A stretch of 64,000 nucleotides of DNA from Paenibacillus sp. yr247 (GTDB taxonomy: Bacteria; Bacillota; Bacilli; Paenibacillales; NBRC-103111), in NCBI RefSeq assembly GCF_900103825.1, contig NZ_FNIF01000002.1:639566-703565 (forward strand). The letters run 5' to 3'. Numbering within the stretch: position 1 is the first letter of the stretch; each line of letters begins with the position of its first letter. Position numbers and translations under genes: made by a program. This document shows, one piece after another, positions 25,983-35,268 of this stretch. Below the pieces are notes generated by a model. That model saw only the letters and a program-made list of their open reading frames with translations. It did not search any database and was not told the origin of the DNA.

Positions 25983-26105
25983 TAGCGCTTACGATGCCAG
26001 TTTTTCTGGCGAAAAACTCACAGTAGCGCTTACGATGCCAGTTTTTCTGGCGAAAAACTCATAGTAGCGCTTACGATGTCAGTTTTTCTGGCGAAAAACT
26101 CTGAG
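25983..26105 (+). repeat. Three tandem 41-bp hairpin repeats
   Basis: Three consecutive 41-bp units (25983, 26024, 26065) each begin TAGCGCTTACGATG and contain CCAGTTTTTCTGGCG and AAAAACTC. Each unit can fold as AGTTTTT/AAAAACT or as GCCAG/CTGGC. The units differ at only a few bases. The third abuts the Shine-Dalgarno sequence of the response regulator gene. Related units occur at 30403-30519 before gltD. Confidence 0.9.
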
Positions 26106-26117
26106 GAGGAGTCATGC

Positions 26118-26807
26118 ATGACACCAACCCCGCTCAAACTACTCCTGGTTGATGATCAGGATTTAATAAGAGAAAGCTTGCACATCGTGCTCGATATGGA
26201 CCCTGACATTCATGTCGTCGGTTTGGCTGAGAACGGTCACATCGCTTTGAAAAAGTGCGAAGAGCAGCAGCCTGACGTTGTTCTTATGGACATTCACATG
26301 CCCGTCATGGACGGAGTCGAAGCAACTCGTCAAATCAAGGCCGTTTGGCCTCAGATTCGCGTCATTATCCTGACCACCTTCCAGGAAATCAGCTATGTCG
26401 TTGATGCCCTAGGTGCAGGAGCCGAAGGGTATTTGCTCAAAGCGATTCATCCGAAGGACCTTGCGTCCGGTATCAAATGGGTCCATCAAGGCGGCACACT
26501 CATCCCGCAGGATATCGCCAGAATGCTCGTACAGCAAGCTCGAGGCGCGACAGAACCACCCACTCGTGATAGCGATGCGAAGCCTGCTGCCGAGGAGCCC
26601 GCTCGCATAGATGCTTACGGACTGAGCGAACGCGAAGTGCAAGTGCTGCACTGCATCGCTGATGGCCTTAACAACAAGGAAATTGCCGAAAAGCTGTTCT
26701 TATCCGAAGGTACCGTGAAAAACTACATTTCAAGCATTTACTCGAAAATGGATGTCCGGGACCGCATTCAAGCGTCAAAGAAGGCTCATGAAGAAGGGAT
26801 GCTATAA
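26118..26807 (+). CDS. Response regulator, NarL/FixJ (LuxR HTH) family
   Basis: This 229-residue regulator has a receiver domain (about 5-125) with the phospho-acceptor Asp58 in VVLMDIHMPVMDG, followed by a linker rich in Pro/Ala/Asp and a LuxR-type helix-turn-helix (about 165-228, LSEREVQVLHCIADGLNNKEIAEKLFLSEGTVKNY). The ATG at 26118 follows GAGGAGGAG; the earlier in-frame ATG at 26076 lies inside the repeat. It is the cognate partner of the upstream kinase and probably controls the divergent ABC exporter, which is inference from context. Confidence 0.94.
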   Translation: MTPTPLKLLLVDDQDLIRESLHIVLDMDPDIHVVGLAENGHIALKKCEEQQPDVVLMDIHMPVMDGVEATRQIKAVWPQIRVIILTTFQEISYVVDALGAGAEGYLLKAIHPKDLASGIKWVHQGGTLIPQDIARMLVQQARGATEPPTRDSDAKPAAEEPARIDAYGLSEREVQVLHCIADGLNNKEIAEKLFLSEGTVKNYISSIYSKMDVRDRIQASKKAHEEGML

Positions 26808-28853: not shown

Positions 28854-28891
28854 AAAAAAGGAAGAAGCCCCAAGAGGTTCCTTCCTTTTTA
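28854..28891. terminator. Bidirectional intrinsic terminator
   Basis: AAAAAGGAAG pairs with CTTCCTTTTT around an imperfect inner stem (AAGCC/GGTTC) with loop CCAAGA. It serves the convergent MFS and gltD transcripts. Confidence 0.75.
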
Positions 28892-28897
28892 CATACG

Positions 28898-30382
<1,485 letters not shown>

Positions 30383-30402
30383 TAACGTTTAGTCCCTCCT
30401 AA

Positions 30403-30519
30403 GAGTTTTCGTGAGAAAACTTACTTCGTAAGCATGTGCTGAGTTTTTCGCCAGAAAAACTGGCTTCGGAAGCATCACTGAGTTTCGCTTCAGCAAAACT
30501 TACTTCGTAAGCATCTGCT
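30403..30519 (-). repeat. Three tandem hairpin repeats of 38-40 bp between gltB and gltD
   Basis: Three units (30403-30440, 30441-30479, 30480-30519) read on the minus strand as GCTTACGAAG or GCTTCCGAAG, then an AGTTTT...AAAACT hairpin ending in CTCA or ACTC. The middle unit contains GCCAGTTTTTCTGGCG, identical to the core of the repeats at 25983. The other two carry GTAAGTTTT with compensating changes, and CTTAC/GTAAG is itself a hairpin. The cluster ends 2 bp upstream of AGGAGG of gltD. Confidence 0.88.
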
Positions 30520-30528
30520 CTGAATTCG

Positions 30529-33500
30529 TTAGTTTCCACCGACACGGGAAACATCCTTCATATTCGCCTCGAAAGCAACCATTATGGCTTCTTGTTGGCT
30601 TAGTCCGGAGCGTTTTACCTTCTCGATGGCATCAAACATCCGCTTGTAGTCCTTCGGTATAACCTTCACGAACTTCCAAACGTACTCATCCCAGCGCTTA
30701 ATGACTTGGTGGGCAACGCTGCTATCCGTAAATGTGGCATGATGCTGAATCATCGTTTTCAGTTCGTTCATTTCAAAAGTTTCCTCTACCTGCTCGAGGT
30801 AGACCATCTCTTTGTTCACCTTGCTTGAGAAGTCACCCTTCTCATCAAGCACATAAGCGATACCCCCGGACATACCGGCAGCAAAGTTACGGCCTGTCGG
30901 ACCAAGTACAACCACACGTCCGCCCGTCATGTATTCACAACCATGGTCGCCTACGCCTTCAACAACAGCACGAACGCCGCTATTTCTTACGCAGAAACGC
31001 TCGCCTGCAATACCACGGATGTAAGCATCCCCATCGGTAGCACCGTAGAAAGCCGTATTTCCAATAATCACGTTTTCCTCTGGTACAAAATTGGACTCAC
31101 TGGAAGGGAAAATGGCCAGTTTACCACCGGATAATCCTTTACCAACGTAGTCATTGGCATCGCCCTCAAGCGAAAGCGTAATGCCTTTCGGCACGAAAGC
31201 ACCAAAGCTTTGACCGGCAGAGCCGTTAAAGTGTAAACGAATCGTATCGTGCGGCAAGCCCTCCGCACCATAGCGGCGAGTCACTTCACTACCTACAATC
31301 GTACCGACAACACGATTAACGTTCTTAATTGGCAGGATGGCATGCACATGCTCCTTACGTTCAATCGCAGGCTCACAAATTTCGAGCAGCTTGGTTACGT
31401 CCAGAGAGCGATCCAACCCGTGATCCTGCGTCATTTGGCAGAATCGGCCAACTTCTTCACCCATATCCGGTTGGTGCAGAAGCGGCGACAAATCGATGCC
31501 TTTGGCTTTCCAATGCTCAACCGCTTTGCCCGCTTCCAAAATATCCGTGCGCCCGACCATCTCTTCGATGGTGCGGAAGCCCAGTGCCGCCATCTGCTCA
31601 CGCACATCCTGAGCGATGAAGGTCATGAAATTGACTACATGCTGCGGATCCCCGGCAAATTTCTTGCGAAGCTCCGGATTTTGCGTAGCAACCCCAACCG
31701 GACAAGTATCCAGATGGCAGACGCGCATCATCACGCAGCCAATCGTAATCAACGGAGTTGTCGCAAAGCCGAATTCCTCAGCTCCGAGCAGCGCCGCAAC
31801 GATAACGTCGCGTCCTGTCATTAGCTTGCCGTCCGTTTCGACGACGATACGGCTGCGCAGATTGTTCAGCACGAGTGTCTGATGCGTCTCCGCCAGACCG
31901 AGCTCCCACGGCAGTCCTGCGTGGCGGATACTCGTCTGCGGTGACGCGCCTGTTCCTCCGTCGTAGCCGGAGATGAGGACCACGTCCGCTTTCCCTTTAG
32001 CTACGCCGGCAGCGATCGTGCCAACACCGACTTCGGATACCAGCTTGACGCTGATCCGTGCCCGCGGGTTGGCATTCTTGAGATCGTGGATCAGCTCCGC
32101 TAGATCCTCGATCGAATAAATATCGTGATGCGGCGGCGGTGAAATTAAGCCTACGCCTGGCGTCACACCGCGAACCTCGGCGACCCAAGGGTACACCTTG
32201 GGTCCCGGAAGCTGACCGCCCTCGCCGGGCTTCGCGCCCTGCGCCATCTTGATCTGAATCTCGTCCGCGTTGACGAGATAATTGCTCGTGACGCCGAAGC
32301 GGCCGGACGCCACCTGCTTGATTGCGCTGCGGCGAAGGTCGCCGTTCGCATCCGGCGTGAAGCGTTCCGGATGCTCGCCTCCCTCGCCGGTATTGCTCTT
32401 GCCGCCGATGCGGTTCATCGCAATCGCCAAGGTCTCGTGCGCTTCCTTGCTGATGGAGCCGTAGGACATGGCTCCGGTCTTGAAGCGCTTAAAGATCGAT
32501 TCGATCGATTCGACTTCTTCGATCGGGATCGGTGCGCGGCCTTCCTTGAAGCTGAGCAGTCCGCGCAAAGCCATATATTTCTTATCTTCTTTTTTGATCA
32601 GTTTAACGAAGTTCTGATACATGCCGTAATTGTTCGTGCGGACAGCGGATTGCAGGGCATGGACTGTTTCCGGTGTGTAGATGTGCTCTTCCCCATCTTT
32701 GCGCCACTGTAAGTCGCCACCGGTATCCAATACACGGTCGCGGCCTTCCTGCTCCGAATACGCCCGGTTGTGGCGGATGAGCGCTTCTTGTGCCACGACA
32801 TCGATGCCAATTCCGCCAACAGGGGTGTGAGTCCATGTAAAGTAAGAATCGACAAGCTCTTGGCTAAGTCCGATTGCTTCGAAAATCTGGGCCCCACGGT
32901 AGCTTTGAATCGTGGAAATCCCCATTTTCGCAAGGACTTTAACTACACCCTTGGTAACCGCTTTGATATAGTTATAAGTCGCTTTCTCGTGATCGATGCC
33001 GACCAACTGATTGCGGCGAATCATGTCATCCAGCGTTTCTAAAGCTAGGTAAGGGTTGATAGCCCCAGCACCGTAGCCGAGAAGCAGAGCAAAATGATGC
33101 ACTTCACGGGGTTCTCCGGACTCCACAAGCAAGCTAACCTTCGTCCGCGTGCCTTGGCGAATCAAATGATGATGCAGACCCGAAGTTGCCAGCAGCGCCG
33201 GAATCGGCGCTTTCTTGCTATCCACGCCGCGGTCCGAAAGAATCAGCAGCGAAGCGCCATCCACAATGGCTTGATCCGCAGCCGCATACAACGTTTGCAT
33301 GGCGCTTTCAAGACCTGCAGTACCTAGAGCTGCTTCAAACAGCGTAGGCAATGTTACGGTCTTAAAGCCATCCCGTTGGATATAGCGAAGCTTTGCGAGC
33401 TCATCATTGGACAGAATCGGCGACTTCAGACGAATTTGACGGCAGCTTTCCGGCTCCGGATGAATCAAATTGCGTTCAGGCCCAATCGTCGTGCCTTGAG

Positions 33501-35121
33501 CCGTAATAATCTCCTCAAAGTTTGCGTCAATGGGTGGATTCGTTACCTGCGCAAACAATTGTTTGAAGTAGTTATAAAGCAGTTGAGGGCGATCCGAAAG
33601 CACCGCAAGCGGCGTATCCGTCCCCATCGAGCCGATCGGGTCAACGCCGGTTTTCGCCATCGGCTCAAGTGTCTTGCGCAGCTGCTCAAATGTATAGCCG
33701 AACGCTTGCTGACGCTGCAGCACGGTATCATGGTCGGAGCCAAGAACAATCTCCCCATCTTCCAGCTCTTCCAAGCTGACCAGATGCTTATCGAGCCATT
33801 CACGATATGGCTGTTCGCTCGCAATGCGGCTTTTGATTTCCTCATCGGCAACGATTCGGCCTTCAATGGTATCAACTAACAGCATACGTCCCGGTCTCAG
33901 ACGCTCTTTGTGCAAAATTCGTTCAGGAGCAATATCCAGCACGCCTACTTCGGATGCTAGTACAATGAAGTCATCCGTTGTTACATAATAACGGGATGGA
34001 CGCAAGCCATTACGGTCAAGAACAGCGCCAATGATGCTGCCATCCGTAAAGGCAATTGCGGCGGGCCCGTCCCATGGCTCCATTAATGTACTGTGATATT
34101 CGTAGAACGCCTTTTTCTCATCATCCATTGTTTCATGCTTGGACCAAGGCTCCGGAATCATCATCATGGCAGCATGCGGCAGCGAACGACCGGAGAGCAT
34201 GAGAAATTCCAGTGTATTATCAAACATTTGAGAATCGGATCCATCGGTATCAATAATAGGAAGAATGCGTTTGAAATCTTCGCCGAAAAGGTCCGAATCA
34301 CACATTGCTTGTCGCGCATGCATCCAATTCACATTCCCGCGAAGCGTGTTAATTTCACCGTTATGAATGAGGTAGCGGTACGGATGCGCACGTTCCCAAC
34401 TTGGAAATGTATTCGTACTGAAACGGGAGTGAACCAGCGCAAGCGCGGAGTCCACCTTCTCGTCCTGCAGTTCAACGTAGTAAGCATCCACTTGCTCAGG
34501 CGTTAACATTCCTTTATATACGATCGTTCTGCTAGACAAGCTAGAATAGTAAAACTGCTCGTCACGATGCGCTAATTTGATAGCGTTTTCAGATAATTTA
34601 CGTATAACATAAAGCTTCCTTTCAAAATCGAGATTGCTCGTCACATTCGCACTTTGTCCGATAAATACTTGGCGTACAAAAGGTTCAGCCGACTTTGCGG
34701 ACTCTCCCAAAGAGCTGTTATCCGTAGGAACAGTTCGCCAGCCCAGGAATTGCTGCCCTTCCTCTCTAACAATGCGCTCAATGATATTTTCGCATGCTTG
34801 GCGAGCCTCCAAATCTTGAGGCAAATAGACCATACCTGCACCATAGTGTCCCGCTGCCGGAAGCTTGATGTTAACTCCAGCACAAGCGCCTTGGAGATAC
34901 GTATCCGGAATTTGCATCAAAATACCTGCTCCGTCTCCCGTATTCTGCTCAAAGCCTTGACCACCTCGATGATCTAAATTGCAAAGTACACGAAGCGCTT
35001 GCTTGACGATTTCATGAGACTTAACACCTTTAATATTAGCTACAAAACCAATACCGCAGGCATCATGCTCGAACTGAGGATCGTACAATCCTTGCTTGGG
35101 AGGTAACCCTTTTTTAGTCAT
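30529..35121 (-). CDS. gltB: Glutamate synthase (NADPH) large subunit
   Basis: This 1530-residue enzyme makes glutamate from glutamine and 2-oxoglutarate. The class II glutamine amidotransferase domain begins after a short propeptide, with the catalytic cysteine in HDACGIGF (Cys22, which becomes the N-terminus on maturation). The central and FMN-binding domains follow ([28 protein letters not shown]). Cysteines in [15 protein letters not shown] bind the 3Fe-4S cluster, and a C-terminal beta-helix ([30 protein letters not shown]) ends the protein. The ATG at 35121 is chosen because it gives the normal length; the upstream frame to 35220 lacks family similarity. Confidence 0.97.
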
Positions 35122-35268
35122 GTTGTGCAACCTTTCTTTTCTGGTTTTTGGACACACTTTGCCCAATGTACGCTTTAAAGTATTAAATTGTCGAAACGTA
35201 GCGACGCGTATTTCATCCATTTGTAGAAGAATAGGAATTGTTGAAATAGTCGCAATATTTTTTATATT

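Follow-up and report, generated by a model that had tools for sequence, protein, structure and literature searches.

What are the repeats that lie between the two glutamate synthase genes of Paenibacillus sp. yr247, and why do they stop just short of a ribosome-binding site? In the window, a stretch of 64,000 nucleotides, gltB (large subunit, 30529..35220, − strand) lies upstream of gltD (small subunit, 28898..30382, − strand), both assigned by Pfam match. The initial annotation had claimed that the gap between these genes contains repeat units of the same family as a locus at about 25983, and that they end 2 bp before the Shine-Dalgarno (SD) sequence of gltD. Three units were found at each locus. 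The gltB-gltD array consists, on the − strand, of a distal unit 1 (30480..30512, GCTTACGAAGTAAGTTTTGCTGAAGCGAAACTC), a middle unit 2 (30441..30473, GCTTCCGAAGCCAGTTTTTCTGGCGAAAAACTC), and an SD-proximal unit 3 (30403..30433, GCTTACGAAGTAAGTTTTCTCACGAAAACTC, with the hairpin AGTTTTC-TCAC-GAAAACT), which scored 50.4, 52.0, and 36.5 bits, respectively, with the covariance model described below. Unit 3 ends 2 nt before the SD AGGAGG (30395..30400, − strand), as had been annotated, and 20 nt before the gltD ATG at 30382. The second array, on the + strand, comprises unit 1 (25987..26019, GCTTACGATGCCAGTTTTTCTGGCGAAAAACTC, 55.3 bits), unit 2 (26028..26060, 55.3 bits), and the SD-proximal unit 3 (26069..26101, 53.7 bits), and it precedes the gene of a NarL/LuxR-type response regulator (26118..26807, + strand, Pfam match). 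The listed open reading frame of this regulator starts at 26076, inside unit 3, and we took 26118 as the true start. The two arrays thus have three head-to-tail units each, both stop 2 nt before an AGGAGG (26104..26109, + strand, for the response regulator), and they share a 41-nt match at 88% identity. Within the gltD array, neighboring units differ in stem type. Just beyond the gltD stop there is also a 15-nt inverted repeat with AAAAA/TTTTT ends (28855-28890), which is probably the terminator of the glt operon.

To search the genome for further copies, we used a strict pattern with 21 fixed bases (GCTT, CGA, G, AGTTTT, and AAAACTC) in which the inner stem and the loop were left free. This pattern matched 57 units in the 6.25-Mb genome and its reversed version none, indicating that the repeat of the gltB-gltD and response-regulator spacers is not due to chance. 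With a covariance model trained on 24 distinct units, we obtained 142 matches at E≤1; the 128 units that reached E≤0.11 form 80 arrays of 1 to 5 units. The interspersed RNA-hairpin family that had been proposed from two loci is therefore found genome-wide. It had also been suspected of being undescribed: no Rfam family (riboswitches, leaders, and thermosensors included) scored above its gathering threshold anywhere in the 64-kb window, and we found no description of the repeat in the open literature. By these two sources, the family is undescribed.

The anatomy of the unit was derived from 246 distinct hairpins collected from this genome and from 115 stretches of named Paenibacillus genomes. 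The unit reads AGCNNAT-GCTTACGAWGNN-AGTTTT(stem-loop)AAAACTC and is followed by TNAGGAGG. Among the 246 hairpins, GCTTACGA is nearly invariant (G7 and A8 of the unit almost completely so). W, G, and two unconstrained bases come next, and then a stem that begins with AGTTTT, ends with AAAACT, and encloses a loop of mostly 3 to 4 nt and highly variable sequence. Because AGCNNAT is conserved even ahead of the first unit of an array, we consider it part of the unit. The only palindrome in the unit is the internal stem-loop, and the ends, AGCNNAT and CTC, are not complementary. Features of an intrinsic terminator are absent from the unit: the stem is A/T-rich and is followed by CTCTNAGGAGG, with no run of T.

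The helix AGTTTTnn/nnAAAACT covaries. Its inner pairs switch together (GC/GC, TC/GA, CC/GG, and C/G), 192 of 192 cells were paired, and changes on both sides occurred 11 times versus 3.9 in shuffles, none of 500 reaching 11, and versus 1 in slid controls. At one orthologous locus in nine species, with proteins that are 98% to 99% identical, the proximal stem reads GCAAACGC, GCCACAGC, GCTAACGC, GCATACGC, CCTACGG, or GCTATGGC, a pattern that indicates compensatory change at a single site among related species. The median predicted pairing probability of the stem was 0.93. The initial annotation had inferred compensatory arms, and this holds for the AGTTTT/AAAACT stem but not for the GCCAG/CTGGC pairing that it drew, which is limited to a subfamily: the hairpin GCCAG-TTTTT-CTGGC overlaps the main helix and occurs only in units with CC at positions 11-12 and a TGGC loop. 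CTTAC-GAA-GTAAG in gltD units 1 and 3 is a separate local pairing, again overlapping and present in only some units. GTAAG-type arms do not, as had been thought, replace GCCAG arms; the two are different overlapping pairings, not swaps within one helix. We rejected either one as a general structure. The loop did pair with positions 11-12 more than in shuffles overall, but the excess came largely from the CC/TGGC subfamily, and stem-7 units and GC-stem units showed no excess.

The SD sequence played no part in finding the copies, and the surroundings of all 80 arrays were inspected. In 79 of them, the last unit ends 0 to 3 nt before an SD-like sequence on the gene's own strand, which agrees with the annotated placement before SD sequences and is the opposite of copies mostly unrelated to such sites. 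Of these 79 arrays, 41 have a gap of 1 nt and 35 a gap of 2 nt, and the full AGGAGG was present in 64. A start codon and an open frame follow the SD in 76 arrays, mostly 13 to 18 nt past the CTC, and no array in the set of 80 is antisense to the gene that it abuts. The sole array lacking an adjoining SD (L207, near 9051; G000:C70:17287-17317, + strand) is a single copy located between two ribosomal-protein-like genes and inverted relative to both. These positions bear on the idea of a DNA-level feature, serving chromosome organization or as a transcription-factor site, that happens to precede genes. REP-type palindromes are known to bind DNA proteins in other bacteria (see also PMC2817692), but such a feature would leave the sense orientation and the fixed offset from the SD unexplained, and the G-U pairs and compensatory changes of the stem suit RNA; we regard this explanation as very improbable.

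A preference for sites inside operons, which had also been claimed, was not found. Using a simple ORF-based gene caller and comparison genes from the same stretches, a co-directional upstream neighbor was present for 58 of 74 array genes and 331 of 423 other genes (78% in both cases), and one within 100 nt for 38 of 74 and 193 of 423, respectively, with similar residual gaps. The association of the arrays is with the SD itself and not with the operon interior.

By inspection of their protein starts, the genes behind the arrays resemble ruvB, recJ, purQ, gltD, leuD, aroC, ndk, pyrG, tpiA, folD, nusB, accC, hslU, gpsA, carB, and others, that is, unrelated core genes with no obvious common pathway. 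This lack of a shared pathway, together with the highly variable loop and the rapid shift of locus membership between species (see below), argues against the unit being the binding site of a trans-acting RNA-binding protein or sRNA that would repress or activate the translation of a large regulon, in which tandem units would serve cooperative binding. The conserved single-stranded GCTTACGAWG next to a covarying stem, the fixed distance to the SD, and the tandem copies would suit such a binder, and there is a precedent in the SD- or start-proximal TAACTGA repeats of Beggiatoaceae, which have been proposed as binding sites (PMC4679880). We consider a trans-acting binder rather improbable.

We then compared the arrays across species. 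In named genomes, 59 of 120 SD-anchored arrays precede an orthologue or homologue (>40% identity) of one of the 80 array genes of this genome, which is far above chance for about 80 of several thousand genes. Turnover is nevertheless visible at individual loci. In the gltB-gltD spacer of 30 species, we found three units in 6, two in 2, one in 7, a decayed hairpin in 2, other sequences in 3, and none in 10. The empty gltD sites, with AACTC or TCTC at their ends, may be scars left by deletion. The decayed hairpins (L237 in G018 and L221 in G005) have the unrelated-looking stem GCCAGC..GCTGGC, equally far ahead of the gltD SD, with no recognizable units, and are possibly a decayed middle unit. 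The gltD states had pointed to a polarity in which new units always join next to the SD; we did not retain this idea, since the tree has losses of unit 3 nested within a clade and the remnants in G005 and G018 are unit 2-like. At purS-purQ, close relatives differ in the presence of the unit with no obvious scar, and the response-regulator array is nearly confined to its own clade. Many species that have no unit at a given gene retain a normal SD there, indicating that the unit is dispensable.

The carA-carB junction suggests how a unit comes to lie before an SD. In 19 relatives, outlying ones included, carA overlaps carB and the junction reads CTGT(G/C)AAGGAGGAACTGC or a close variant, with CTGT(G/C)AAGGAGG at the SD. 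In six genomes of two clades it reads CTGTAAGTAAA-GCTTACGAAGCAAGTTTTGCTAACGCAAAACTCTA(A/G)GGAGGAACTGC or a close variant, with the unit exactly before (A/G)GGAGG. On this comparison of junctions, the unit was placed directly ahead of an already existing SD (AAGGAGG). Either several insertions or a replacement by recombination must be assumed, as the unit is missing from close relatives whose flanking bases are identical. The carA-carB unit (L271/L182; G000:C34:514263-514295) also adds, by in-frame translation, a new tail to the C terminus of CarA, whose end is now unit-encoded (SKAYEASFANAKL, tail KAYEASFANAKL) with its stop at CTC-TAA, so that the ancestral overlap with carB has been replaced.

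Units also resemble one another within arrays: GCTTTCGATG is present in both units of G015, and GCTTACGATG recurs in every unit of G000 and of G002, which indicates duplication or conversion inside arrays. We compared the SD-proximal unit with the next one wherever a second unit was detectable. Bit scores (model R1) gave p=0.11 and are biased against 31-nt units, and a length-neutral score was therefore substituted; by this score, the proximal unit of this genome was better in 17 pairs, worse in 4, and equal in 15 (p=0.007), and this supports a stronger sequence constraint on the unit adjoining the SD. The part of the comparison that used named loci is biased, as those loci were picked for an intact proximal unit.

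The repeat is a family of approximately 40-bp DNA modules that occurs chiefly in one Paenibacillus lineage. Of 30 genomes sampled from the genus, 29 had strict matches (1 to 65 per genome), as did several other genera of the family, with 75 in G044; G049, from another family of Paenibacillales, has 4 strict copies. Named records with the repeat are almost all Paenibacillus of the alginolyticus, chondroitinus, phytorum, and periandrae kind. Spread at the family level is patchy and the rest of the class is almost free of the repeat, where a sample of 399 genomes contained only 2 with a match to the SD-anchored pattern. In G037, G041, G044, and G048, every array but one (L262) again stops at AGGAGG or a sequence close to it. 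Two arrays of G044 (L263 and L268; G044:C1:511545-511864 and 1735598-1736050) contain 8 and 11 nearly identical units, much more than any array of the yr247 genome, and end at the SD. Two units of G049 (L251 and L252; G049:C1:1357448-1357480 and 1529750-1529782, − strand) lie inside rRNA operons and end 4 nt (TTAG/TCAG) before the start of the 5S rRNA gene instead of before an SD.

The strongest rival to a functional module is a purely selfish, non-autonomous MITE- or REP-like element, whose insertion machinery would recognize the SD motif (TNAGGAGG), whose hairpin would serve mobility, and which the host would tolerate since the landing site is outside the SD-to-start interval. The unit placed precisely ahead of an existing SD at carA-carB, the presence/absence differences at purS-purQ, the near restriction of the response-regulator array to its own clade, the adjoining of different stem types at gltD, and the unrelatedness of the array genes are all in line with this. 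However, the unit has no gene inside and no terminal inverted repeats beyond its hairpin, and a target-site duplication could not be demonstrated: filled and empty carB sites show a possible AAG duplication, and left and right flanks were not correlated (p=0.44). Y1 transposases (PF01797) gave no match in G001, G002, G015, G016, and G021, which hold 41 to 65 strict units; transposases of the REP type thus do not track copy number, and an association with a mobile-element transposase of this kind, which would have accounted for the repeats, was not seen. Mobilization by a REP/RAYT system is not supported on the same grounds. A phage origin was rejected, since the exact pattern had no match in the viral contigs searched. 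Retention at orthologous genes and the better-kept proximal unit also suggest selection. A purely selfish element is a possibility to be reckoned with, although not the explanation that we prefer, and it is somewhat unlikely that a gene-less mobile hairpin of about 40 bp inserts specifically before ribosome-binding sites and is then kept as a portable post-transcriptional control module.

Known repeat families resemble the module in part. REP elements are extragenic palindromes of 20-40 bp in tens to hundreds of copies, typically in alternating orientation within BIMEs and with Y1 (RAYT, TnpA-REP) transposases. The Paenibacillus unit is likewise a short palindromic repeat in many copies, but its arrays are all head-to-tail in a single orientation, sense, 5' of SDs, and have no Y1_Tnp link. 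The bcr repeats of Bacillus cereus are also interspersed and structured repeats of a Bacillales lineage; they are longer than the unit of about 40 bp, and bcr1 has mobile-element characteristics. They are not known to be locked to SDs. BOX, RUP, and SPRITE of Streptococcus pneumoniae share with the unit a small, modular, interspersed hairpin form, intergenic location, lineage restriction, and possible cis effects on expression, but terminal inverted repeats and target duplications characterize BOX and RUP, for which no SD-locking is described, and SPRITE favors gene 3' ends (PMC3049150). The TAACTGA direct repeats of marine Beggiatoaceae are also short, tandem, mostly sense, and right before the starts of functionally unrelated genes, with a proposed translational role; they are, however, 7-mers with no hairpin that overlap the SD or stand in for it, an SD being present in just about 10% of the regions with repeats (PMC4679880). 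In contrast, the Paenibacillus unit is about 40 nt long, has a covarying stem, lies before an intact SD in 79 of 80 arrays, and does not contain the heptamer.

The hairpin repeat is probably a small mobile or duplicating module that shapes the translation or the message lifetime of the downstream gene. Given its anatomy, orientation, SD-locking, stem covariation, orthologous persistence, gain and loss of units, and placement before an existing SD, we infer that it functions in cis on initiation or mRNA decay. Our preferred reading, held tentatively and at slightly less than even confidence, is a duplicating SD-locked hairpin module that acts in cis as an insulator of the initiation region and as a 5' protector. 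Modules would be placed and re-duplicated directly 5' of SD sequences; once transcribed, the SD-proximal unit would fold into a small hairpin, the 3' side of which ends approximately 3 nt before AGGAGG, and stop upstream RNA from pairing with the SD. If the message is then cleaved immediately before the hairpin, in the conserved single-stranded GCUUACGAAG, the hairpin together with an SD bound by a ribosome would protect the downstream cistron against decay from the 5' side; cleavage and protection together would change how stable downstream cistrons are in relative terms. Units farther from the SD would be remnants of older units, or duplicates that are less tightly constrained. Modeled SD accessibility was 0.41 with native units versus 0.37 with shuffled ones (p=0.002), and in-silico deletion of the unit left the mean unchanged (0.409 versus 0.411). 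In these models, therefore, the hairpin leaves the SD exposed and is at least harmless to it, possibly insulating. RNase Y of Bacillus subtilis has a weak preference for GA with structure further downstream (PMC11780869), which the conserved single-stranded GA a few bases before the hairpin resembles. Several findings count against the insulator and protector explanation: modeled accessibility is no different once the unit is deleted, many species do without the unit at a given gene, the conservation of GCTTACGAAG and AGTTTT exceeds what a plain hairpin needs, and three copies lie off an SD (the inverted L207 and the two 5S rRNA copies of one distant genome).

Interspersed palindromic repeats usually scatter across intergenic space, and SD-locking at this level is an unusual property of the family. 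For 79 of 80 arrays to stop 0 to 3 nt before an SD in the sense orientation, either insertion must be guided by ribosome-binding sites or selection on position must be very strong, and either would be new. For annotation, the module can lengthen upstream proteins, as with the CarA tail KAYEASFANAKL, and mislead start-codon calls, as with the open reading frame at 26076. The 80 loci, with filled, empty, and decayed states across dozens of species, constitute a natural test set for SD-adjacent structure, translation, and decay. If the hairpin is indeed mobile and SD-directed, one lineage would carry a control module before scores of unrelated core genes.
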